64,000 nt of DNA from Actinomycetes bacterium (GTDB taxonomy: Bacteria > Planctomycetota > Phycisphaerae > JAACET01). Of this stretch, positions 4,747-17,078 are shown one piece after another. The translations under genes and the position numbers were made by a program. The notes below the pieces were generated by a model. The model was not told where the DNA came from and did no database searches. It saw only the letters and a list, made by a program, of their open reading frames with translations. The first letter of the stretch is position 1. The number at the start of each line of letters is the position of its first letter. The DNA lies in contig JAUXAG010000007.1 of the NCBI GenBank assembly GCA_030614915.1, forward strand, positions 62,001-126,000, written 5' to 3'.

Positions 4747-4773
4747 AGAGGAGCTGTTCGGCTCCTCTTTTTT
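4747..4773. terminator. Terminator between toxin pair and STAND gene
   Basis: AGAGGAGC (4747-4754) pairs with GCTCCTCT (4761-4768) across a six-base loop and runs into six T residues on the plus strand. It terminates the toxin-antitoxin unit. On the minus strand the stem overlaps the last codon of the NTPase gene, so it may also serve that convergent gene. Confidence 0.75.
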
Positions 4774-7147
4774 AGGTTGGTTCAGGAGGCGGGGCGTCGA
4801 TGCCCATTGCCTTGTAAAAAGCAAGTATTTTGTCGTTTGGCAGACCAACTTTACGAACACTATTAACAAAAGCCGTTACAGGTTTCATGTGTATGTTTTC
4901 CTCTCGAGCCACCTTGCCTAGCTCCGCAAAATCAAGTTCTTCACAAAAAGCGTGGATCTTTTCATATGAGACTCCGACTTCTTGAGCGAAATTGGCAAAA
5001 TACATCGCCGTTGTATCTTTGCTTGCCTGCCGACCTAATTTCTGAAAATCTAATTCATTGTAAAAAGACGCCATCTTCTTTCTAGAAACTCCTGCATCTA
5101 TAGCAAGGGGACCAATACACGCCGTAAAAACCACGGCCTGTCGATATTCCTGCACTCGTTTGCCTAAAGCGGGAAAATCAAGTTCTTCACAAAAAGCACA
5201 TACCTTATCATTTGGAACTCCTTCATAGAAAAGGCTTCCAATAAACCATGCTATTGTATGAATACTTATTTTGTCCTTCTTTGCACATTTGCCTAACGCG
5301 CAAAAATCTATGACGGTACCAATATCTATACCTAACCACCGTTCAATTCCAAATATTTCCCTCAGCGACCAGGTGTAAGCCGGGGCGAAGCCAATCTTAT
5401 TTATGGTTCTCATCAGTGGTTTAAAGAGTTTTTCCGCAATCCATGTTCTGTCAACTGATTCAACATTAGCCACGCCAAGAACGTAGGAGAGCATTGATAC
5501 TTGATTGCACTCAATGTAGCTTATACCTTCCTGTTGAATAATTCTCTCTACTAACTCATACAGGTCAGAGTCATTAATTAGCCTGCTATACCACTCTTTC
5601 CTTTTCCGGGCATGTAATTTATCAAACACACTAAAAAAATTAAAAGGAGTTGTGCCCAAATAATTCTTCAAACATTGTAAGGTAAACTCCTCCGTGCTCT
5701 TTGCATCAAGACAGGGGCTATATACCGCAGCTTTGAGAAAAAACCCTGCCACAGTAGGATGATAAACACGAAACCAGGAAACATATCTTCCCGGTTCTAT
5801 TGTTTGTTTTCTGACTAGAATGAGCCCCTCTTTCTGTAACTCATCTGAGGGTTTCTTGCCAATCCAACATAAGTCAACATCGATTTCAAGTTGTGACAAT
5901 GCAGATATTTTAAGTAACTCTTGCCGATAAGGCTTATTCTCTAAATAATGGAGGTATATATCATCTAATATTTCTGTCTCTTTCACATTTGAAAGACAGA
6001 CAGCACAGTCCCTTGGTTGATCAAGCCACGCCCGAATATAGAAGCGTAAGATGTTGTAATCACCCTTACACTTTTCTATTAACGAATCAATATTACCTAT
6101 CTTGTCCCCAGTCCTTCCACTTGTTTTCGCCGCGTGATTAATAATATGGCGAACGGCTACTTCATCGATTTGCAGCTCTTGTGTTGCTTTTTCAAGTATA
6201 TCAATATAGCTAATGCTGTGAGTCGCGCCTGGAGGTGTACTTGCAGTTACATTGCGATCAACCTTTCGCGATGTTATGAGAAGCTTTGTCTTATGCTCCA
6301 GAACACTAGATAGAAGGTTATTGGTGCCCGCAGGGCTTGCATGTGCATTGTCTAATATCACAAGGCTGTTTTCGTCACATGATTCAATAAAACTTGCCCA
6401 TTCTTGTGGATTTGATTCGCTACTAGCATCTTGGTAGTAAACTGAAGTGCCTTTCTGCGATAGTTCATATCCCATTGCTAATGCAAGAGAGGTTTTGCCA
6501 CATCCGGGGGTGCCAATAAGCAAGCACCTTTTGTTCCTTTTAAGAATGCTCCTAATCTCTTCATGATAGGCTTCATTACGATAATAATCTCCGCTCTCAA
6601 AATCTTTCTGAGAAGGATAACGACCAAGTTGTGGAGCAAGTCTTTCTTCTAGTGGCATAAAGGAGGAAGAATGTGATCCGCTAACAACCTCCTTTTTCGA
6701 TTTTACCAGTTCTTCCTCAATCTGTTTTAATGCATGGTTCAGCACATTTTGTAATATGTCTTGCGAAATCAATTCGTCTGAGCGGTCAGGCTGGCTGGTA
6801 CGTGTGCAAGCAAAATGCCCTCCGATGAATTTGCCTACACTCTTAAAATACAATTGAATAGGCGGCTTGATTCCATATTGGTTACAGAAATTGTTAAGCG
6901 ATTCATTCAGAGGTGTCCGTCTCTTACTGATTTCAGAGGCTGGCTCCTTATAATCGTGAGCTAGGTTCTCAGCAATCGTCTTCTGTTGGATAAGTCGGTC
7001 TTTTGAGCCAATAATTGTCGCCATCAATTCTTGCTGCTTTTCAGCCTTTTTGCCCATGTGTTCAAGCAATTGTTGCTGAACGCCCTTGCGTTCTAAAAAA
7101 GAGACAATCAAATCATGATGTGCTTTTATTTCCCTACGATTTGGCAT
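4772..7147 (-). CDS. STAND-like P-loop NTPase with C-terminal repeats, 791 aa
   Basis: ATG 7147 is preferred over an upstream TTG at 7183 because AGAGGA precedes it. Domains: a helical N-terminus (1-150), a P-loop NTPase core with Walker A GTPGCGKT (about 212-219), Walker B LVILDN (about 262-267) and an LLITSR sensor-like strand (about 289-294), a helical region, then at least three repeats of about 40 residues with the core F-ELDF--LGK near the C-terminus. This is the nucleotide-binding plus repeat-sensor layout of STAND proteins, many of which are antiphage or cell-death switches. No effector domain is obvious at the N-terminus. A TATAAT at 7195-7200 on this strand may be its -10. Defence is inference from architecture and location. 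Confidence 0.75.
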   Translation of the reverse strand: MPNRREIKAHHDLIVSFLERKGVQQQLLEHMGKKAEKQQELMATIIGSKDRLIQQKTIAENLAHDYKEPASEISKRRTPLNESLNNFCNQYGIKPPIQLYFKSVGKFIGGHFACTRTSQPDRSDELISQDILQNVLNHALKQIEEELVKSKKEVVSGSHSSSFMPLEERLAPQLGRYPSQKDFESGDYYRNEAYHEEIRSILKRNKRCLLIGTPGCGKTSLALAMGYELSQKGTSVYYQDASSESNPQEWASFIESCDENSLVILDNAHASPAGTNNLLSSVLEHKTKLLITSRKVDRNVTASTPPGATHSISYIDILEKATQELQIDEVAVRHIINHAAKTSGRTGDKIGNIDSLIEKCKGDYNILRFYIRAWLDQPRDCAVCLSNVKETEILDDIYLHYLENKPYRQELLKISALSQLEIDVDLCWIGKKPSDELQKEGLILVRKQTIEPGRYVSWFRVYHPTVAGFFLKAAVYSPCLDAKSTEEFTLQCLKNYLGTTPFNFFSVFDKLHARKRKEWYSRLINDSDLYELVERIIQQEGISYIECNQVSMLSYVLGVANVESVDRTWIAEKLFKPLMRTINKIGFAPAYTWSLREIFGIERWLGIDIGTVIDFCALGKCAKKDKISIHTIAWFIGSLFYEGVPNDKVCAFCEELDFPALGKRVQEYRQAVVFTACIGPLAIDAGVSRKKMASFYNELDFQKLGRQASKDTTAMYFANFAQEVGVSYEKIHAFCEELDFAELGKVAREENIHMKPVTAFVNSVRKVGLPNDKILAFYKAMGIDAPPPEPT

Positions 7148-7288
7148 TCTTTGTCCTCTGATAATTATGGGGCCGGACCCCAACTCCCACCTGCATTATA
7201 ACGTTTGTGCCTGGTTGCGAAAAGAGCTGTCATTTTTCACTGGAGAGCAACCACAAGTCTTATAAAGGGCCAAAAGCTGTCCGTATTT

Positions 7289-8773: not shown

Positions 8774-8950
8774 ATGAGTTGGAAGCGAAAAGGCATGGAA
8801 ATCTTGGTTGACTCGTTGCGGTATTGCGGCCGGGCAGCAATGGCGATCAATCTTATTTTGATCAGTGTTTTCAGTGTGTGGTTCGTGGCCAAGTTTTTGT
8901 GGCACACGGTTGGCTGGCTTAACCGCACCTTGTTTAGTTCCAGTTGGTAA
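8774..8950 (+). CDS. Small single-pass membrane protein, 58 aa
   Basis: The ATG at 8774 has AAGGAG about 9 bases upstream. The 58-residue product has a basic N-terminus (SWKRKG), one hydrophobic segment (about residues 21-42) and several Trp residues, consistent with a small inner-membrane protein. It sits just before the zinc-binding protein of the element operon. No family is recognised. Support comes from the ribosome-binding site, operon position and the membrane segment. Confidence 0.55.
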   Translation: MSWKRKGMEILVDSLRYCGRAAMAINLILISVFSVWFVAKFLWHTVGWLNRTLFSSSW

Positions 8951-8990
8951 CAAGCGAATAGAAGTTCAAATATGAGTGAAAGGAGCTTTG

Positions 8991-9407
8991 ATGAAGCCGC
9001 TTCGTAACAAACAAAAGCTTGTGATTACTGACGGGCGAATTCCTGGCCAGGAAAGAGTCCTGGAATCTCAACTCGAGTCGGATGTGCTTTCTGATGGGGG
9101 ATCAGTAGATTCCATAACCACTAGTACAATAAGGCCTTGCGAATGCGGATGCTTCCAGCCCCCTGCAGGAAGATGCGAGTTGTGTAAATCGCTCAGTTGT
9201 GTTTCCTGTCATGGCCATTGCCAGGGGTGTAATGCCCCAATCTGTCGAGAATGCTCCGTTTTTGTTGGTTTGCCCGGTGGCAAGGCCGCTCGTTATTGCC
9301 AAGGGTGCTATTCCAAAATCAAGCAACAGACGCGAACGGCTGCAATTGTGCAATTTCTGCTGTCTCCGATAGTCAGCTTCAAGGACCAAAGCAATGAGGG
9401 AAAGTGA
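8991..9407 (+). CDS. Multi-Cys zinc-binding protein, 138 aa
   Basis: ATG 8991 has AAAGGAG about 6 bases upstream; a GTG at 8976 lacks this. After a variable N-terminal 45 residues comes a dense Cys/His region (about residues 50-110) with pairs CEC, CELC, CVSC, H-HC, CQGC, C-EC and CQGC. This fits two or more treble-clef/B-box-like zinc sites. The last stretch is hydrophobic. Its stop overlaps the start of the ATPase gene by 14 bases, so the two are translationally coupled. It may dock to, or regulate, that ATPase. No named family was recognised. Confidence 0.65.
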   Translation: MKPLRNKQKLVITDGRIPGQERVLESQLESDVLSDGGSVDSITTSTIRPCECGCFQPPAGRCELCKSLSCVSCHGHCQGCNAPICRECSVFVGLPGGKAARYCQGCYSKIKQQTRTAAIVQFLLSPIVSFKDQSNEGK

Positions 9408-11094
9408 ATTCTCACAACTAACCAATGATGTTCTGTTTGGCCTCAAATCCCGTCTTTTCGAGGACGAGGTCGGTCAGGCGATGCTGCGGCTATATGAGCA
9501 TGGCGTATGCGACGACCGCATTGCCGGGATGATGCACAACCGTGTTCAACGCGAAAAGAGGCGCCAGGCATTTTGCCTGCTGCCTTTTAAAAACCCAATA
9601 TTGCGACAGGGCAAGCTGATGCTGGGTAGGGACATAGCCGGAAAGCCTGTCGTGATTCCAATTCAATACTTAAACGCCCATGTCCTGACTATTGCCAACA
9701 CCGGTAGCGGCAAGACGACCAAGTCCCGCTTTTTGATCCTGCAGATTGCCCCGCGCGTCAAGGGTCTGTGGGCACTGGACCTAAGAAAACGAGAATTTCG
9801 TGTATTGCGTCCCTATCTAAAGCGTCTGGGAATCGATCTTATCGTCGTACCTGGCCGCTCCTTTAAGATTAACCCGCTTGCGGTGCCTCTGGGGGTTGAC
9901 GCTGCCAGCTGGGCGGCTACTGCCGCGTCGATGCTAATTCAAGTTCTCAGCCTAGCTCCACGGGCCAGTAAGCTTGTACAGACCACAATATTTCATCTAT
10001 ACCAGAAGTTCGGCATCCTTGATGGTAAAGATTTGTATCCAACTCTTTTCGATCTGTTCGAGGCAATAAAGCAAAACAAGGCTGCCAACGCCCAATCTCG
10101 TCTTGCGATTTTGGACAGTCTCGATCCGGTGCTTTCTTCGCTTGGCCCGAGGGTTCTGGCATATAGAAGGGGATGGTCCAGCCATGACCTGGCCTCTATG
10201 CATTTGGTATTTGAGTTTGCCGGATTAGCCGAAACCGACACCAACCTGTTACTGACTACCACCACCTTTTCGGAGTTTTCATCACGGATAGCCAGAGGTG
10301 TATCAAATCCCAAGATGGATCTGTGGATATGCTGCGACGAAGCCAACCGCCTTTGTTCGGCTTCGCACGAGGCAACCACCAGGATTTCGGATATGGTCGG
10401 GCTTGTCAGGGGTAGCGGTATCGGGCTGGACTTTTCGCTTCTTTCTACGAACGGTCTGGCATCCGGGGTCCCCAGCAACTGTGCCACAAAGATTATGGGC
10501 CGCTGCGGCAGTGCCGCCGATTATGCCGCTACCGGTCATAGCATGGGCCTAACAGCAGAGCAAATCGAGTGGTCTAAGCTGAATCTCAAACCTGGAACGT
10601 TCGTCGGTCAGCTCGGTGAAGGCGACTGGAGATACCCGTTTGTATTCAGCATCCCGGAAATGAAGTTCCCCGCCCACAATACCAAAAATACGGCTGATTT
10701 GGATTTGGGACAACTCGAATCCTTACCGACGGTATTCGCTGAAGAATTCCGAAACTGGGGCCAGCCGCTGGAAATACCAACTGCCCCAGAGAGTAGTCAG
10801 CAGACAGCCGATGCAACCATATCATCCAAGCCTACTCTGAATGCTGCCGAGTACCGTTTTCTTCGAGCAATAAATGAATCACCAATGCAGCCGTGCAGCA
10901 GCTACGCCAAGCTTGCTCAGATAAGCCAGAAAACTGCCAAGAGCACACGTTCCCGGCTTGTCGGTCAAGACTACCTCCGCGAGCACCTGGTTCAGGCCAA
11001 AGGACGTGGCCGAAATTCCATCCTCTTAGAGATTACGGCAGTAGGCAAAGAAGTGATCGTAAACCACGAATCACAGGGGAGGAATAATGTCTAA
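9394..11094 (+). CDS. HerA/TraG-like DNA-translocase ATPase, 566 aa
   Basis: A P-loop ATPase of the HerA/FtsK/VirD4 class. Walker A is NTGSGKTT (about 102-109), following the strand NAHVLTIA. Walker B is LWICCDEAN (about 310-318), with the acidic DE followed by N. A Thr-rich stretch near 288-292 and SLLSTNG near 352 fill the sensor positions. The C-terminal 100 residues form a winged helix (AEYRFLRAINE, then KTAKSTRSRL and a GRGRNSILLEIT wing). No membrane segments are seen at the N-terminus, unlike typical VirD4 coupling proteins. It may move DNA for element transfer, replication or defence. Neither a relaxase nor T4SS genes are visible nearby. Confidence 0.8.
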   Translation: MRESEFSQLTNDVLFGLKSRLFEDEVGQAMLRLYEHGVCDDRIAGMMHNRVQREKRRQAFCLLPFKNPILRQGKLMLGRDIAGKPVVIPIQYLNAHVLTIANTGSGKTTKSRFLILQIAPRVKGLWALDLRKREFRVLRPYLKRLGIDLIVVPGRSFKINPLAVPLGVDAASWAATAASMLIQVLSLAPRASKLVQTTIFHLYQKFGILDGKDLYPTLFDLFEAIKQNKAANAQSRLAILDSLDPVLSSLGPRVLAYRRGWSSHDLASMHLVFEFAGLAETDTNLLLTTTTFSEFSSRIARGVSNPKMDLWICCDEANRLCSASHEATTRISDMVGLVRGSGIGLDFSLLSTNGLASGVPSNCATKIMGRCGSAADYAATGHSMGLTAEQIEWSKLNLKPGTFVGQLGEGDWRYPFVFSIPEMKFPAHNTKNTADLDLGQLESLPTVFAEEFRNWGQPLEIPTAPESSQQTADATISSKPTLNAAEYRFLRAINESPMQPCSSYAKLAQISQKTAKSTRSRLVGQDYLREHLVQAKGRGRNSILLEITAVGKEVIVNHESQGRNNV

Positions 11095-11515
11095 AGACAA
11101 AACAATGACCGAGTTCATACTTCCTGCAATGAGAGGCAAAGTCCTCCATAAATACATGGCCCAGAAAGTTGCCGAAAGGTTCGTCTCGCTCGGGTTCGAG
11201 GTGTCCGCTGAGTATCCGACTTGTCTTGCGGATGGTGTTAAAGATTACACTGATCTTCTTGTCAGTTGTGGTGTATTCGACCTGGCAATCGAAATTGAAA
11301 CCACACCCCGCAATGTGCTAACCAACGCCATTAAGGCTGATAACCTTGGCTTTCGCTTATGGATCGTAGCGCCAAATAAAAAGATCAGCTCAGTTGTCGC
11401 GAGGAAACTTAGGCAGGCTGCACTTTCTAATAGTAGACGAATACGAGTTCTTACACTCGGGCAGTTTTTGAATCTTACCCTAATTCAAATCATAGCGTGG
11501 TGGAAAGGAGGATAG
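11087..11515 (+). CDS. Possible PD-(D/E)XK-fold protein, 142 aa
   Basis: The ATG at 11087 overlaps the ATPase stop by 8 bases and has GGAGG upstream, so it is coupled to the ATPase. The order of N-terminal helix, then YTDLLV strand (Asp 56), FDLAIEIET strand (Glu 69, Glu 71), a helix with Lys 83 and a RLWIVAP strand resembles the core of restriction-endonuclease-like folds. The Lys of the usual ExK motif is not in place and may have migrated. It could be a nuclease paired with the HerA-like ATPase, as NurA is with HerA, but that is inference. A non-catalytic role is equally possible. Confidence 0.5.
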   Translation: MSKDKTMTEFILPAMRGKVLHKYMAQKVAERFVSLGFEVSAEYPTCLADGVKDYTDLLVSCGVFDLAIEIETTPRNVLTNAIKADNLGFRLWIVAPNKKISSVVARKLRQAALSNSRRIRVLTLGQFLNLTLIQIIAWWKGG

Positions 11516-11734
11516 ATGCAAATCAAATGGAGCAATGTGATTGCCTTGGCGTTGGCAGTATTTGCCTTGGTGGTAGGGCTACGGCACCTGCCGGAGATTA
11601 GCGAGTTTATTTCAGCAGTCTCGCATATTGGCCCGCGTGGTGATCCTGAACAGCGAATATTTGGCCTCATGGCCTTTGGGCTAATGATGATCACTATCGT
11701 GGCAGTAGTACGAATATTGGTCGACCGCAAATAA
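11516..11734 (+). CDS. Small two-pass membrane protein, 72 aa
   Basis: The start directly abuts the previous stop (TAG-ATG), with AAAGGAGG about 5 bases upstream. Two hydrophobic helices (about residues 7-25 and 47-67) flank a short loop of charged and Gly residues. It is the second small membrane protein of the operon. No family is recognised; a structural or anchoring role is possible. Confidence 0.6.
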   Translation: MQIKWSNVIALALAVFALVVGLRHLPEISEFISAVSHIGPRGDPEQRIFGLMAFGLMMITIVAVVRILVDRK

Positions 11735-11759
11735 CCACTTTTGAAAGGAGCAGAAAAAC

Positions 11760-12428
11760 ATGATTGGAACAAGAATCCCAATAGACGACCAGCCACCTTT
11801 GGAACAAAGGCTGACTCAGGTAATTGCACAGATTCTGGCTATACCACAGACGCTGGAGCAAATCCAGCAATCCCAGAGTGAGCAGTGTGAGCAAGTCCCA
11901 CAATTCCAGGAGACTCAATCTCTGCAGGGGCGAAATCTTCAAAAGCTGGAAGGATCGGTCCTGAAACTGACAGAGGCCATTGAGGCTTTATATAGTAGGC
12001 AGGATTGCCTTGAGCAGACGAGCCGTCAGCAGACACTGCTATCAGAGCAACATTACCAACGGCATATCATTGAGCCTTTGGCCCGTCGTATTTTCCCACT
12101 GATCGACATGCTCTCGGAAGCTATCTCTAACAGCAATGATGAGCAAGTTTCAAACGCTCGATCAGACGTTCTTGAGGCACTAACAGCCGAATTACATGAA
12201 CTACTGGCTGGCTATGGCATCGAGCCGATTCGGGCAACAGCAGGTAGCGTATTTGAGGCCAAAATAATGAAGCCTGCTCGATTAGTCCCGACCCATCATC
12301 CGGAGAATGACAAGATGGTTGAGTCCATGCTTCGGCTTGGTTTTAGACGTGATGAACTGATACTCAGGCCGGCCGTAGTTTCCATATATCGTTTCGAAGG
12401 TTCCAAACATCTTTCTAATGTACTCTAA
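11760..12428 (+). CDS. GrpE-like nucleotide exchange factor, 222 aa
   Basis: A ribosome-binding site (AAAGGAG) lies about 10 bases upstream. The first 100 residues are a Gln/Glu-rich coiled coil. The C-terminal part fits GrpE: helices with LIDML and LLAGYGIEPI, then the beta domain with SVFEAKIM (FDP-equivalent), THHPENDKMVESML-LGF and LRPAVVSIYRF, matching the GrpE ending GY-L-RVLRPA-V-V. It lies directly before an Hsp70 gene and would drive ADP release from it. Its coiled coil is longer and less charged than in housekeeping GrpE, which suggests a dedicated partner. There is no DnaJ in the operon. Confidence 0.75.
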   Translation: MIGTRIPIDDQPPLEQRLTQVIAQILAIPQTLEQIQQSQSEQCEQVPQFQETQSLQGRNLQKLEGSVLKLTEAIEALYSRQDCLEQTSRQQTLLSEQHYQRHIIEPLARRIFPLIDMLSEAISNSNDEQVSNARSDVLEALTAELHELLAGYGIEPIRATAGSVFEAKIMKPARLVPTHHPENDKMVESMLRLGFRRDELILRPAVVSIYRFEGSKHLSNVL

Positions 12429-12448
12429 AACGAAAGGAGAAGTGAATT

Positions 12449-13960
12449 ATGAGCGGATTTGCAGCTATTGATTTAGGTGACGGACGTGTGAAGGTGGCGA
12501 TTCCCGATGGTAACGGTAACCCGGTGACTATGCCGTTCTCGGACGGGGGTCTCTATCTGCCGAGTGCAATCTTCTTCAACTCGGACGGCTCGGTGATTTA
12601 CGGCCTGGAGGCTTTGAATCTTGGGCTTGCTGAGCCGGAAAGACTGGTAATCAATTGGAAGCGGAAAATGGGTACAGACCAGGTGCTCTATCGTTCCGAC
12701 GACGGTACCGAGTACAGAGCCTGTGATATTGCCAGGCTGTTGCTAGAGGAAGTAGCCAGGAATTTCGAGTCCCGAACGGGTGAGCTTCTGACCAAGGCCG
12801 CTATATCTGTACCGGCTATCTATATCGACAGCAAGAAGGAGCAGACCAAGCAAGCAGGCGAGGCCCTTGACATCGAAGTGGTCTGCATGCCCCATGAGCC
12901 AACGGCGGCCCTGTTCGGCAACAAGGTCCACGACAGGTGCGACGGGTTGCGACTGGTTATTGATGTGGGCAGCTCGACGACCGATGTTTCTATAGGTGAA
13001 AAGTCCGGCAATAACATCGCCATCAAGAACACCCACGGCGATCCAAATCTTGGCGGACAGGACTTCAGTACCAAGCTAAGGGAAATGGTTCTCGAACGCT
13101 TTGAGCAGAAACACGGCTTCAGGCCTGATGCTAAAAAGCACCCGCTAGCGTATCAAGAGCTATTTCAACGTATCGAGCAAGTCAAGCACTCTTTGAGCAC
13201 CAGGGATCAGGCTTCGGTGGTGGTTAGCTGCGAAGGCAGTGTATTCAACACAGTCATCACCCGCGAGGAATTCGAGCGTATTACAGTTGATGAGCTCAAA
13301 AGTGTCATGGACTGCGTTGATCAGACTCTCAAAGAAGCTGGTGTTTCGGCAGATGATATTCTGGAGATCATTCCTGTTGGCGGGCCCTCTCAGATGCCGA
13401 TGATGGCTGACGCTATCGAACGGCGGTTCGGCAAAAAGCCTACCTGCCACTGTGAGCCGCATTTTGCGGTGGCACTCGGTAACGTGATTGCCGGTCGGCT
13501 GGAGGTCGAACGCAATGGCAGGTCATTTGAAGTCGGTGGAGCTAAATTGCCGCCCCTGAGCCTTAGTGCTCGCGACGTAACATCGCACCCCATTGGTGTA
13601 GCTGTACTTGCCGACGGGAACGAGAGACGCCTCATCAACGCCGTTGTTCTGGACAAGGGAGTTCCCATTCCTTCGGACCAAACTCACCCGTTTACGTTAG
13701 CACAGCCGGGCCAGACCGACGCAAAGATCGAAGTACTTCAGGGTAAGGACGCAGCCCCTTATGGCGAATGTCTGCTACTGGGGCACTTTGAACTTACGGG
13801 AATGACGCCGGTTTTTGACAGACCTCATCGCGTCGATGTTCGTCTGAAGTTTGATCACAACGGGATGCTAAATGCCAGTGCTTATGATCCTGCAAGTGGA
13901 ATAAGTGCAGACTTGGAAATTGACTACACCAAGACCAAAGAATCTCAAAAAGTTACGTAA
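12449..13960 (+). CDS. Lidless Hsp70/DnaK-like chaperone, 503 aa
   Basis: AAAGGAGA lies about 9 bases before the ATG. The nucleotide-binding domain (about 1-345) has an altered phosphate-1 loop (AIDLGDGRVKVAI), a CMPHEPTAALFG connect region, phosphate-2 IDVGSSTTDVSI and adenosine loop IIPVGGPSQMP. The substrate-binding beta domain follows (about 365-495: VVLDKGVPIPS, EVLQGKDA, FDHNGMLNASAYDP). The protein ends there, so the alpha-helical lid present in DnaK is missing; normal DnaK is about 630 residues. A GrpE-like gene precedes it and a VWA gene follows. It is probably a specialised chaperone of the element, not housekeeping. Confidence 0.9.
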   Translation: MSGFAAIDLGDGRVKVAIPDGNGNPVTMPFSDGGLYLPSAIFFNSDGSVIYGLEALNLGLAEPERLVINWKRKMGTDQVLYRSDDGTEYRACDIARLLLEEVARNFESRTGELLTKAAISVPAIYIDSKKEQTKQAGEALDIEVVCMPHEPTAALFGNKVHDRCDGLRLVIDVGSSTTDVSIGEKSGNNIAIKNTHGDPNLGGQDFSTKLREMVLERFEQKHGFRPDAKKHPLAYQELFQRIEQVKHSLSTRDQASVVVSCEGSVFNTVITREEFERITVDELKSVMDCVDQTLKEAGVSADDILEIIPVGGPSQMPMMADAIERRFGKKPTCHCEPHFAVALGNVIAGRLEVERNGRSFEVGGAKLPPLSLSARDVTSHPIGVAVLADGNERRLINAVVLDKGVPIPSDQTHPFTLAQPGQTDAKIEVLQGKDAAPYGECLLLGHFELTGMTPVFDRPHRVDVRLKFDHNGMLNASAYDPASGISADLEIDYTKTKESQKVT

Positions 13961-13988
13961 CCTCTTAAGAACTAAGGAGAAATATAAG

Positions 13989-14714
13989 GTGATTACAAAA
14001 CATAATAATACGACAGTGGCTGTTTGGACTCGCAAGATTGATCTTGTCGAATGGGGCTACCTTGCTTTCGCATCCATTCTGGGAGCTTTGAAAAGTTTTC
14101 TATTTGAAGATACTCCCTCATTCAAAGCCAGGGCTTTACCGCCGGTAAAAGGTGCTCGCGACTGTGTTCTGATTGTTGATGTCTCCGGGTCTATGTTTGA
14201 CGATGATTGGAAACCCACACGTCTTGATGCTGCTATAGATGCAGCCAACACTTTTGCCAGGCGTCTGAGGCGGAAGGCGCCCGACGCTCGTATTGCTGTG
14301 GTTATTTTTTCGTGCAAAGCGAAAGTTGTCTACCGACTAACCGCAGCAAGAAAATTCGGCAAGATAAGCCACAAAATTGATCAGATAGACGTAGGTACAT
14401 ACACAAATATGTATGCTGGCCTGAAGGTAGCTCTAGGTCTACTGAAGAACCGTGCTCGAACCTGCCAGGTTGTATTATTAACGGATGGCCAAAACACCGG
14501 CCGGAATCCTGAGAATCTAGCCGATAGGCTAAAGGAGTTTGCAATTGTTGAATGCATTGGCATCGGCGGTAGTCCTGCCGATGTCGATGAACCGCTTCTT
14601 AGAAGAATCGCCTCAGCCTATCCTAACGGCAAAAAACGCTATCGCTGGATTGGGCAGAAAGAGCAACTAATCAAACACTTCCATACTTTGGCCGGTGCAA
14701 TCAGGAGGGCCTAG
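13989..14714 (+). CDS. VWA-domain protein with intact MIDAS, 241 aa
   Basis: The frame is open from 13905, but GTG 13989 has AAGGAG 9 bases upstream and lies just after the Hsp70 stop, so I take it as the start. After about 60 residues with a hydrophobic stretch (about 20-38) comes a von Willebrand A domain. Its MIDAS motif is DVSGSM (about 64-69), with Thr in GTYTNMYAGL and Asp in VVLLTDGQN, so metal binding should be intact. VWA domains act as metal-dependent adhesion and scaffold modules beside AAA or chaperone partners. The setting after GrpE-like and Hsp70 genes suggests a client or cofactor of the chaperone. Confidence 0.85.
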   Translation: MITKHNNTTVAVWTRKIDLVEWGYLAFASILGALKSFLFEDTPSFKARALPPVKGARDCVLIVDVSGSMFDDDWKPTRLDAAIDAANTFARRLRRKAPDARIAVVIFSCKAKVVYRLTAARKFGKISHKIDQIDVGTYTNMYAGLKVALGLLKNRARTCQVVLLTDGQNTGRNPENLADRLKEFAIVECIGIGGSPADVDEPLLRRIASAYPNGKKRYRWIGQKEQLIKHFHTLAGAIRRA

Positions 14715-14716
14715 CA

Positions 14717-15013
14717 ATGACCTATACGACCAATATTCTTGCAGTGCCGCTGGTTCTTACCATTTGGGCTTTGGATATGTACTTGTTTCTTCTAATGGTC
14801 TACAGCGTCTTGACAAGATTGTCCGGTGAACGTGCCAGCCAACTACGCATATGTCTAAGGCCATTCACCGAGCCCTTGCCGCAGGCTGTCAGACGATGGC
14901 TGGGACAGCACACAACCAAACCTGTAAGGCGATGGGTGCCGTGGGCAGTTGTAATTTGTGGTGGTCTAATTGTTCGACACGTGTTGGTTTTGCTGATTGT
15001 TTCTCTGGGATAA
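14717..15013 (+). CDS. Membrane protein, possibly YggT-like, 98 aa
   Basis: The gene starts 2 bases after the VWA stop, with GGAGG upstream. Two hydrophobic segments (about residues 8-32 and 74-97) flank a basic loop with a proline-rich LRPFTEPLP motif and RRWVPWAVV. The overall shape recalls the YggT family of small membrane proteins, but the match is weak. Part of the element operon; role unknown. Confidence 0.55.
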   Translation: MTYTTNILAVPLVLTIWALDMYLFLLMVYSVLTRLSGERASQLRICLRPFTEPLPQAVRRWLGQHTTKPVRRWVPWAVVICGGLIVRHVLVLLIVSLG

Positions 15014-15034
15014 GCGAATAGCAAAGGATAAATC

Positions 15035-15373
15035 ATGACAGACATATCTAAAATAATGATCATGACACCAATTTTCATCATGCTCTTGGTGATATCATTC
15101 AACGCCCTACGGTCAGCTTTGGGCTTTGGCAGAATGCATTCCTTCATACTTTCTGTGTGCGTATCTATGTTGTCGGTAATTGGCATAGTACGTTATCTGA
15201 ACGATTCGATGGAGATGATCTTGCTGCCATATGCAGCTCTGGCAGTGGCCATTCTTTTGCTACTACTATTTTCGTTTATAGGTAGATCCTTCAAAGGCTC
15301 AAAGGACCGGTTGTCTAACCGTGCTGGCGGAAAGAATATTACCGAAATGAATGATGAGCGTTTGAGAAGATGA
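15035..15373 (+). CDS. Membrane protein, 112 aa
   Basis: Three hydrophobic segments (about residues 7-27, 36-52 and 61-84) are followed by a charged cytoplasmic tail rich in Lys and Arg. A weak AAAGGA site lies upstream. The stop overlaps the start of the excisionase gene as ATGA, so it belongs to the same operon. No family is recognised. Confidence 0.6.
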   Translation: MTDISKIMIMTPIFIMLLVISFNALRSALGFGRMHSFILSVCVSMLSVIGIVRYLNDSMEMILLPYAALAVAILLLLLFSFIGRSFKGSKDRLSNRAGGKNITEMNDERLRR

Positions 15374-15615
15374 GCATGAATACTACTTATAAAGAAACTT
15401 TTGATAATGACAATATGATCAAGCTGCCGCTTCTCTTGAGGCCAAATGAAGCAGCCCAAGTTCTGGCTATATCGCCACGGAAGCTCTGGGAACTGACCAA
15501 CTGTGGCGAAATCCCGTGTTTGCGAATAGGACGAGCTGTAAGGTATTCTGTCGAGGATTTACAGCAATGGATTGAAGGCAAAAGCTGTAAGCATGGGACA
15601 GAAAAAAGGGCTTAA
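15370..15615 (+). CDS. Excisionase-like helix-turn-helix protein, 81 aa
   Basis: After a variable N-terminus the protein has a MerR/HTH_17-type winged helix: RPNEAAQVLAISPRKLWEL, then GEIPCLRIGRAVRYSVEDLQQWI. This is the standard form of excisionase and plasmid helix-turn-helix proteins. It is encoded directly before the integrase gene and overlaps the preceding membrane gene by four bases. It probably directs excision by bending DNA at the attachment site and may repress the integrase promoter that follows it. Confidence 0.85.
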   Translation: MSMNTTYKETFDNDNMIKLPLLLRPNEAAQVLAISPRKLWELTNCGEIPCLRIGRAVRYSVEDLQQWIEGKSCKHGTEKRA

Positions 15616-15620
15616 ATTCC

Positions 15621-15649
15621 TTGACTTTTTTGACTGGAAAGGATAGAAT
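15621..15649 (+). promoter_or_regulatory. Sigma-70 promoter of the integrase gene
   Basis: TTGACT (15621-15626) and TAGAAT (15644-15649) are separated by exactly 17 bases, in the short gap between the excisionase and integrase genes. The integrase can thus be expressed independently of the long operon. Confidence 0.75.
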
Positions 15650-15715
15650 TAGTGCCGTAAATAAAGTACCCTAAGTGCTTTGTACACATGACTTAATGAC
15701 AGCGAAAGGTGAACT

Positions 15716-17005
15716 ATGGCGAGTATATCACATGACAAGCAAACCAGGCGGCGAATGATCCAATTTGTCCTCGACGGAAAAAGGCTTTCTGTCCGTTTGG
15801 GCAAGGTGAATAAGAAACAGGCTGAATCGGCTAAGCTATACATCGAGGATTTACTTGCATGTAAAGTGACCGGTACAGCACCGCAGGGAAAAACAGCTGA
15901 ATGGATCGCTAGCTTAACAGATATGATTCGAAAACGGCTGGAGCGGACAGGCTTAATCGAACCACAAGAACGCCGGGACTGTCCAAAGCTGGGACAATGG
16001 CTGGAAAAATACATCGACAGCCGTACAGACGTTAAGCCCAATACAAAACGTAACCTGAAGCAGGCTGAAAAGAGTTTAAAAGGTTTCTTTGCTGATTCAA
16101 AAAGACTGGACGAGATAACAGCAGGTGATGCTGAGGAATTCCGGATTTACCTAAAATCGCAAGGATTAGCTGAAGGCACTATTCGCCGACGCTGCAAGAG
16201 AGCCAAGCAGTTCTTTAACGCGGCTGTTAAGAAGAAAATCCTCTCAGAAAACCCGTTTGCAGGCCTTAAATGCGGGAATTACTCAGATGCCAGCCGGTTT
16301 TATTATATTACCAGAGAAGAAGCCCAAACTGTCTTGGATACCTGTCCGGATGCTGAATGGCGTACGATCTTCGCTCTTTGCCGTTACGGTGGCCTACGAT
16401 GCCCATCAGAGGTTTTAGGACTTAAATGGGAAGATATGGACTGGGAACGTTCGCGTTTTACTGTCCGGTCGTCCAAAACAGAGCACCATACCGGTGGCGG
16501 TATCCGACAGGTCCCGATTTTCCCAGAATTATATCCGCACATACGGGATTGCTTTGAACAGGCTAAGGAAGGCCAGATTTTCGTTATTAGCCGATATAGA
16601 GACCCCAGCGTCAATTTACGAACTCAGCTTTGCCGTATTATAAAACGTGCAGGTCTGGAAGCCTGGCCAAAGCTTTTTCAAAATCTTCGCAGTACGCGAG
16701 AGACAGAGCTTGCCGAGCAATATCCACTTCACGTGATTTGTGCATGGATAGGCAACTCTCAACCAATTGCAGCGAAGCATTACCTGCAGGTAACGGAAGA
16801 CCACTTCAAAAAAGCGCTGCAGAATCCGATGCACTTTCCGGTGCAGCAGGCAGCCGCAGGGCTTCGCCCAGAATCGCACAAAAAAATGGAAGATGACATA
16901 AGCCTTGTTGGTTGCGGGACTACGCGAAATGACGCGAGTCCATGCAATTGCAAGGACTTAGGTAAGATGCCCCCAAGGGGACTCGAACCCCTGTCACCTG
17001 GCTGA
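15716..17005 (+). CDS. Tyrosine integrase of planctomycete type, 429 aa
   Basis: A SAM-like core-binding domain (about 90-185) precedes a tyrosine recombinase catalytic domain with RYGGLRCPSE (first Arg), SSKTEHH (Lys), FQNLRSTRETEL (second Arg box), AWIGNS (LGHS equivalent) and the nucleophile Tyr in HYLQV. The usual HxxR is replaced by QNLR, as in many planctomycete integrases from memory. AAAGGTG lies before the ATG. The last 12 or so residues (PPRGLEPLSPG) are read from the antisense strand of the tRNA-Glu gene, so integration at that tRNA supplies the 3' end and stop. It drives integration and, with the excisionase, excision of the element. Confidence 0.95.
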   Translation: MASISHDKQTRRRMIQFVLDGKRLSVRLGKVNKKQAESAKLYIEDLLACKVTGTAPQGKTAEWIASLTDMIRKRLERTGLIEPQERRDCPKLGQWLEKYIDSRTDVKPNTKRNLKQAEKSLKGFFADSKRLDEITAGDAEEFRIYLKSQGLAEGTIRRRCKRAKQFFNAAVKKKILSENPFAGLKCGNYSDASRFYYITREEAQTVLDTCPDAEWRTIFALCRYGGLRCPSEVLGLKWEDMDWERSRFTVRSSKTEHHTGGGIRQVPIFPELYPHIRDCFEQAKEGQIFVISRYRDPSVNLRTQLCRIIKRAGLEAWPKLFQNLRSTRETELAEQYPLHVICAWIGNSQPIAAKHYLQVTEDHFKKALQNPMHFPVQQAAAGLRPESHKKMEDDISLVGCGTTRNDASPCNCKDLGKMPPRGLEPLSPG

Positions 17006-17040
17006 GAACCAGGTATCCTAGGCCGCTAGACGATGGGGGC
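16969..17040 (-). tRNA. tRNA-Glu (CUC anticodon), element insertion site
   Basis: On the minus strand the 72-base cloverleaf starts GCCCCCA and ends TGGGGGC, giving a 7-pair acceptor stem. The anticodon stem CCTGG/CCAGG encloses loop TTCTCAG with anticodon CTC (Glu). The T arm is CAGGGGTTCGAGTCCCCTT-like. No CCA is encoded. The integrase gene ends inside it, so the 3' half of this tRNA is very probably the crossover region and has been kept intact by the element. Confidence 0.95.
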
Positions 17041-17078
17041 AGGCTTTTTTTATCGGGCCAACTGAGCCCGTGGCTAAA

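Follow-up and report, generated by a model that had tools for sequence, protein, structure and literature searches.

The stretch analysed here (the window: 64,000 nucleotides, C21:62001-126000 of the genome labelled G000, from the planctomycete class Phycisphaerae, with 2.56 Mb in 36 contigs) carries at 8774-17005 an operon of twelve overlapping or closely spaced plus-strand genes encoding, in order, a small membrane protein (mem58), a Cys-rich protein, an ATPase, a protein of PD-(D/E)XK fold, a second membrane protein (mem72), a GrpE-like factor, an Hsp70, a VWA protein, two further membrane proteins (mem98 and mem112), an excisionase and an integrase. An original prediction made from the letters alone had proposed that the first eleven, at 8774-15615, form one linked system in a tRNA-integrated element. 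All eleven lie on the plus strand where it had placed them, the overlaps at 9394/9407, 11087/11094 and 15370/15373 and the abutment at 11515/11516 are exact, and the integrase belongs to the same unit.

The right-hand end of the operon confirms the tRNA-integrated setting. The tyrosine integrase (15716-17005, plus strand; Phage_int_SAM_5 5.7e-15, Phage_integrase 4.9e-11) reads at its C-terminus into a minus-strand tRNA-Glu(ctc) gene (16966-17041, located with ARAGORN), which is the attachment target, and is preceded by an excisionase-type helix-turn-helix (HTH) protein (15370-15615, plus strand; Pfam HTH_17 1.4e-12, TIGR01764 excise 1.3e-8). The end of the tRNA sequence forms a 22-bp att repeat, TGCCCCCAAGGGGACTCGAACC (16968-16989 of the window, C21:78968), with an exact partner copy outside the window at C21:22178, and a 23-base probe allowing up to two mismatches finds two copies in total in the host genome. 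The position of the partner therefore delimits an element of about 56.8 kb, some 40 kb of which lies to the left of the window. With its integrase and excisionase, and with att repeats on both sides of an insertion into a tRNA gene, it belongs among integrative elements (integrative and conjugative elements, ICEs; integrative and mobilizable elements, IMEs; genomic islands), and the module has a lower G+C content (about 41-52%) than the chromosome on its right (mostly 55-60%).

At the core of the operon stands an FtsK/HerA-superfamily ATPase with a C-terminal winged-helix-like region (9394-11094, plus strand), matched in Pfam by FtsK_SpoIIIE at 6.4e-5, just below the curated cut-off, and by DUF87 at 0.058; the GxGKT P-loop and a DE motif are invariant in its family, and orthologues share 39-50% identity. 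The nuclease-like protein that follows (11087-11515, plus strand) was modelled with AlphaFold2 at a predicted local distance difference test score (pLDDT) of 86.5, and the best PDB matches of this model in Foldseek are mostly PD-(D/E)XK nucleases (Can2, Bax1, AF1548, Hjc), bearing out the original call. In an alignment of 22 homologues H21, D56 and E71 are kept and E69 and K83 are nearly invariant, with ExE replacing ExK; judged by the model, the protein has the PD-(D/E)XK nuclease fold, and its catalysis is only predicted.

The chaperone part comprises a GrpE-like nucleotide exchange factor (11760-12428, plus strand; Pfam GrpE 3.9e-14), an Hsp70 with nucleotide-binding and substrate-binding beta domains (12449-13960, plus strand; Pfam HSP70 9.8e-65) and a VWA protein (13989-14714, plus strand; VWA_2 2.7e-19). 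The Hsp70 is lidless, as the family alignment covers only residues ~3-511 of the 605 of DnaK, and its ATPase-site positions Lys, Glu and Thr/Asp are conserved. The metal-ion-dependent adhesion site (MIDAS) of the VWA protein is intact, with D92, S94, S96, T167 and D194 invariant (numbered from 13905), although translation probably starts at the GTG at 13989, preceded by the Shine-Dalgarno sequence AAGGAG, instead of at 13905. No J-domain family was found among the operon proteins with Pfam, and a J-domain regular expression was negative across the related loci described below. The GrpE, Hsp70, VWA and excisionase identities first assigned from the letters alone, the missing lid, the intact MIDAS and a triad without an adjacent DnaJ gene all stand.

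Small genes surround these enzymes. The 58-residue mem58 (8774-8950), the first gene of the module, and the Cys-rich protein (8976-9407; 13 Cys, probably zinc-binding, in no Pfam family) have counterparts in 25 and 28 open reading frames (ORFs) of related loci, respectively, mem58 lying directly before the Cys-rich gene there; the 72-residue mem72 (11516-11734; 25 such ORFs) marks the left border of an exchangeable slot. To the right of the triad, mem98 (14717-15013, 98 residues) has relatives in G082, G106, G147 and G348, and mem112 (15035-15373, 112 residues) in G018, G249, G264, G392, G217 and others. All five are on the plus strand, and hydropathy gives the four membrane proteins one, two, two and three transmembrane (TM) segments, in agreement with their original designation.

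Recurrence of the module and its exchangeable slot

Neighbourhoods of related loci, most of them in fragmented metagenome assemblies, were compared after labelling their genes with local profile hidden Markov models. The core ATPase is present in 13 of 150 relatives, about half of the matches being distant, and its profile finds it in 24 of 397 genomes of the class and in 9 of 392 drawn from the phylum, the two draws overlapping; every named relative of the operon is labelled Phycisphaerae or Phycisphaerales. The order that recurs, across numerous unrelated members of the class and phylum, is mem58, Cys-rich protein, ATPase, PD-(D/E)XK protein, mem72, a slot, one or more membrane proteins, excisionase (xis) and integrase (int). 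Sixteen of the 24 ATPase-bearing genomes also have this Hsp70 family, which occurs in 27 of the 397 (hypergeometric P = 6e-16), and the distances of core and triad proteins correlate (Mantel r 0.60-0.93, none of 2000 permutations as high). The gene-order comparison in other planctomycete genomes that had been suggested for the proposed single system thus upholds it.

Wherever the contig is long enough to tell, the ATPase nearly always has a recombinase within 7.3 kb of it (G374 is the exception). Some of these recombinases belong to the tyrosine class and others to the serine class, and the tRNA gene adjoining the recombinase varies: Glu in the window, Asp in G018, Pro-tgg in G165, Pro-cgg in G180 and Ser in G264. 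This proximity, across both recombinase classes and different tRNA genes, therefore marks the module as element backbone rather than as a property of one insertion. No att repeats were found at related loci within the stretches examined, where elements may be longer or contigs broken.

The GrpE-Hsp70-VWA triad stands beside the core ATPase in 18 loci, in 17 of them within the slot and in G106 before mem58; G347 and G303 stop inside the triad at a contig end, and three of the 18 are copies in one genome, G191. What proved most informative is that this chaperone triad is itself an exchangeable unit. In four loci (type B; G147, G165, G483 and, cut by a contig end, G298) the slot holds instead a TerY-P-like set of VWA protein, PP2C and Ser/Thr kinase, the VWA protein of G147 matching PADLOC TerY at 6e-17 and its kinase STK_OB at 1e-9. 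Three further loci (type C; G317, G374, G743) encode a membrane protein that combines an N-terminal VWA-like region with an FHA domain, together with a Tubulin_2 protein of about 950 residues (Pfam 6e-18 in G317, 5e-6 in G374); the VWA-like region is matched in hhalign at an E-value of 7e-5 but a probability of 63%, and its MIDAS is degenerate. In G180, tubulin-like and VWA genes lie just upstream of the Cys-rich gene.

On a maximum-likelihood tree of 29 ATPases, with long branches for G303 and G180, the slot label (A, B or C) changes at least seven times. A single origin is rejected for type B (approximately unbiased test, p-AU 7e-65) and for type C (4e-6), and the labels cluster no more strongly than shuffled ones. 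Sister pairs differ in their slot, for example Hsp70 in G018 versus tubulin in G317 (support 100/99), and every swap junction falls within a single contig. These repeated swaps suggest that the chaperone, kinase/phosphatase and tubulin-like units are all interchangeable switches of one DNA machine.

Triads away from the core, found by a whole-genome search of the class for the Hsp70 family, usually adjoin another P-loop ATPase, and the GrpE-like gene precedes Hsp70 in all triads whose contig extends far enough. The neighbouring ATPase is of DUF87 type in G044, G183 and G262, and that of G174 matches the same local profile, with a weak Pfam match. In G037 and G211 the triad adjoins proteins of about 800 residues with a weak SXT_TraD match, a similar protein being present in G183, and in G204 its neighbour is a VirD4/TraG coupling protein (T4SS-DNA_transf 2.2e-6); ArdC is adjacent to that protein, and a TrwC relaxase lies a few kilobases away. 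The contigs of G163, G234 and two extra G362 triad loci end before a neighbourhood can be read. Weaker Hsp70 matches of about 525 residues occur without GrpE or VWA neighbours in G003, G012, G021, G036 and G057 (L133-L137), several of them near genes that look FHA-like by eye. Because of such genes a short Hsp70 alone is not diagnostic, and the lidless Hsp70 was discarded as a hallmark. A bare Hsp70 query of 398 genomes from another planctomycete class returned mostly ordinary DnaK and Hsp70 genes of about 530 residues, and is too unspecific for the triad.

The element encodes a second, HerA-type ATPase (C21:59567-61531, L020:17567-19531; DUF87 5e-9), which ends about 470 bases left of the window. 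It matches the DNA-import ATPases CedD (7e-20) and CedB (2.5e-13), although these and its VirB4-type matches are well below curated cut-offs. Its C-terminal PD-(D/E)XK domain is homologous to the operon's separate 142-residue protein; relatives in G082 and G111 share 49-54% identity with it, and ArdC is encoded directly upstream in G082 and G312.

Mobility and competing explanations

We favour, with a probability of about one half, a reading in which a family of planctomycete integrative elements shares this operon as its integrase-proximal backbone module, the ATPase is the element's DNA pump for mobility and the slot unit is its switch. The ATPase would pump element DNA while anchored to the membrane through the small TM proteins (hydropathy assigns the ATPase itself no TM segment, which is relevant to a comparison with membrane-anchored FtsK-type pumps), the PD-(D/E)XK protein would cut or hold the DNA, and the translocase complex would act together with excision as the element is mobilised, under the control of the slot unit. 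In the version found in the window, the VWA protein may bind a component or a signal peptide. The Hsp70, which lacks both a lid and a dedicated J protein and would cycle with the operon's GrpE, may assemble or release the translocase complex, a job that would fall to a phosphorylation switch or a tubulin-like assembly in other elements. The near-constant position on the xis/int side, its independence of recombinase class, the G204 context of coupling protein, relaxase and ArdC, and the CedD/CedB-like second ATPase all favour mobility at the level of sequence comparison.

Several observations weigh against this proposal. The best PADLOC match of the core ATPase is mad8 (1.9e-7), with HerA at 9e-5, and its likeness to coupling proteins is weak (SXT_TraD 0.0047); its AlphaFold2 model, at a mean pLDDT of 61.5, is too poor to use. 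Two distant triads stand apart from the general pattern, with no ATPase detected near that of G070, and none within 12.9 kb of that of G054, whose neighbours are a transposase-like fragment and unrelated genes. Neither the relaxase families PF03432, PF08751 and PF03389 nor a Replic_Relax protein was found in the genome of the window, and classical single-strand conjugation is therefore unsupported. The original prediction had offered transfer, replication or defence; the evidence leans towards DNA translocation and mobility over defence, without settling the choice.

The main rival, which we consider unlikely, is a defence system residing beside the integrase, in which invading DNA would be degraded by the ATPase with the PD-(D/E)XK protein, and the slot unit (Hsp70/VWA, kinase/PP2C or tubulin) would act as infection sensor or threshold switch. 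The mad8 match speaks for it, as do the TerY-P-like units of the same slot (TerY 6e-17, STK_OB 1e-9), known as stand-alone anti-phage systems or CoCoNuT companions (PMC11090510), and the match of three slot units to the companions of GAP1-N2 conflict systems (PMC7159879); the elements also bear defence-like cargo, namely SIR2-HerA in G207 and a STAND NTPase in the window. A near-constant site between cargo and xis/int, with either recombinase class, nevertheless fits backbone better than cargo, the distant triads adjoin coupling-protein-type ATPases (once with a relaxase and ArdC), and no PADLOC model matches the whole operon.

Improbable, in our view, is a role in maintaining the excised circle or in its replication-partition, with an FtsK-like pump and a nuclease that would resolve or segregate it while the Hsp70 triad would remodel an initiation or partition complex. 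Remodelling of replication complexes by Hsp70 and GrpE is established for phage lambda and for plasmids P1 and F, and the ATPase does have FtsK-type and winged-helix features; but none of the operon genes was recognised as coding for a replication initiator, and a swap to kinase and PP2C is hard to reconcile with remodelling of a specific initiator. We give still less credence to a phage satellite or degenerate prophage with the ATPase as packaging motor: HerA/FtsK-type ATPases package DNA in some viruses and this one weakly matches the terminase family phrog_2666 (3.8e-5), but no relative was found among 2.9 million viral contigs and no virion-protein family among the element proteins scanned. 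Plasmid carriage was likewise set aside, a plasmid search having given only weak HerA-like matches. That unrelated genes came together by chance in a cargo region, as the ~525-residue Hsp70 genes without GrpE or VWA neighbours might hint, can be dismissed in the face of an order that recurs in many genomes, co-divergence and the co-occurrence at P = 6e-16.

The proposed mobility machine gains its wider interest from the slot. We tentatively suggest, with somewhat less assurance than for mobility itself, that Hsp70/GrpE, kinase/phosphatase and tubulin-like units can replace one another functionally as regulators of a single element-encoded translocase-nuclease, to which each connects mostly via a VWA adaptor; the window would then encode a DNA-transfer motor gated by a chaperone, and the three themes described for GTPase conflict systems would be general plug-in control modules of bacteria, not components of a single system. 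The loci amount to a natural swap experiment: on a resolved tree, one set of ATPase, nuclease-fold and membrane genes has changed partner repeatedly among three unrelated control units; as the swaps recur around one core, the proposed equivalence is directly testable. Beyond predicted GTPase conflict systems, it would also cover a DNA-pumping motor carried by mobile elements.

Other genes of the element

The STAND-type NTPase (803 residues, window 4772-7183, minus strand; nSTAND3 2.9e-8) is probably defence cargo of the element, and the 297-, 167- and 222-residue proteins encoded at 270-2872 have no Pfam match; by eye, the last is Cys-rich at its N-terminus and coiled-coil-like at its C-terminus, and has a TM segment. 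To the left of the window, C21:51037-53432 (L020:9037-11432) carries Cys-rich, JAB-domain and ThiF/E1-like genes (ThiF 5.6e-25; PADLOC JAB and E1-E2 models), a set reminiscent of ubiquitin-like conjugation defence or of PRTRC genes, and a JAB-like and ThiF-like pair is also seen by eye just upstream of mem58 in JAEUIV010000055 (L040). The minus strand of C21:54215-58870 (L020:12215-16870) encodes two proteins of the orotidine monophosphate (OMP) decarboxylase family (8.5e-25, 1.3e-28), an AdoHcyase-NAD-domain protein and a 230-residue protein that looks phosphoribosyltransferase-like by eye, possibly cargo for a nucleoside-type metabolism. An ABC transporter (2.2e-33) and a radical SAM protein (2.2e-17) at C21:26329-29825 (L019) may form a peptide-modification locus within the element.

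Upstream of mem58 in related loci (G082 C98:20836-23933, G111 C57:349028-352015, G207 L070:3569-6720) we also observed a second semi-conserved gene pair, encoding a multi-TM protein (an M48 peptidase in G207, 4.6e-11, and similar in G082 and G111) and a partner of about 310-360 residues. A SIR2-HerA defence pair lies just upstream of the module in G207 (L070:662-3385; PADLOC HerA 7.5e-151, SIR2 4.9e-41), and the ATPase there that had been considered a second HerA turned out to be the one of this pair.

Relation to known systems

Where the original prediction knew of no such combination of genes, there is in fact a precedent for its parts. GAP1-N2 GTPase systems come with three non-overlapping themes, namely tubulin (with vWA), HSP70 plus GrpE, and kinase plus PP2C plus vWA (Kaur et al. 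2020, PMC7159879). The same three companion sets alternate beside the core ATPase here, and membrane association and zinc-ribbon themes are common to both; the core there consists of a TRAFAC-type GTPase, GAP1 and FNIII, whereas here it is an FtsK/HerA ATPase and a PD-(D/E)XK protein with xis/int, and no GTPase or GAP1 family was found among the operon proteins with Pfam and NCBIfam. TerY-P triads accompany many defence systems, act stand-alone against phage or accompany CoCoNuTs, as Hsp70 homologues also do (PMC11090510). Slot B of G147, G165 and G483 shares their VWA-PP2C-kinase composition, whereas the window's operon has VWA, GrpE and Hsp70 with no PP2C or kinase in Pfam, and is tied to an integrative-element core.

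The conjugative coupling ATPases (VirD4/TraD, CedB/CedD) and the actinomycete FtsK-like transfer ATPases belong to the same P-loop superfamily and likewise occur on integrating elements near int/xis, and TraD/VirD4-like proteins adjoin distant triads. The similarity is weak, however, the genome of the window has no relaxase of the three families searched, and to our knowledge an Hsp70 partner is not part of these systems. HerA-centred defence systems (SIR2-HerA, DUF4297-HerA) and mad8 of MADS share with the operon the ATPase superfamily and a nuclease-type partner, but the scores of the core ATPase are marginal (mad8 1.9e-7, HerA 9e-5) compared with 1e-150 for the true SIR2-HerA ATPase in G207. 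The PD-(D/E)XK partner belongs to no PADLOC family, which separates the operon from SIR2-HerA and DUF4297-HerA, and of the eight mad genes of MADS PADLOC finds only the mad8-like ATPase in it, beside a weak, HTH-only MAD1 match far below the cut-off. With canonical DnaK-DnaJ-GrpE, the window Hsp70 shares nucleotide-binding and substrate-binding beta domains, catalytic residues and a GrpE partner, while it is lidless, has no DnaJ in its operon and is about 30% identical to the genome's own DnaK-like protein.

As their defining features are absent, we did not file the operon under TerY-P, GAP1-N2, SIR2-HerA, MADS or conjugative ICEs. In the searched open-access literature, outside which most subscription journals lie, we found no paper linking the Hsp70-GrpE-VWA triad with an FtsK/HerA translocase at an integrase, and the core ATPase is not well covered by Pfam, NCBIfam, PHROGs or PADLOC models, consistent with an undescribed planctomycete integrative-element backbone. 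Other systems thus already show these control units alternating three ways; the novelty lies in the core described here and in its link to integrative elements.

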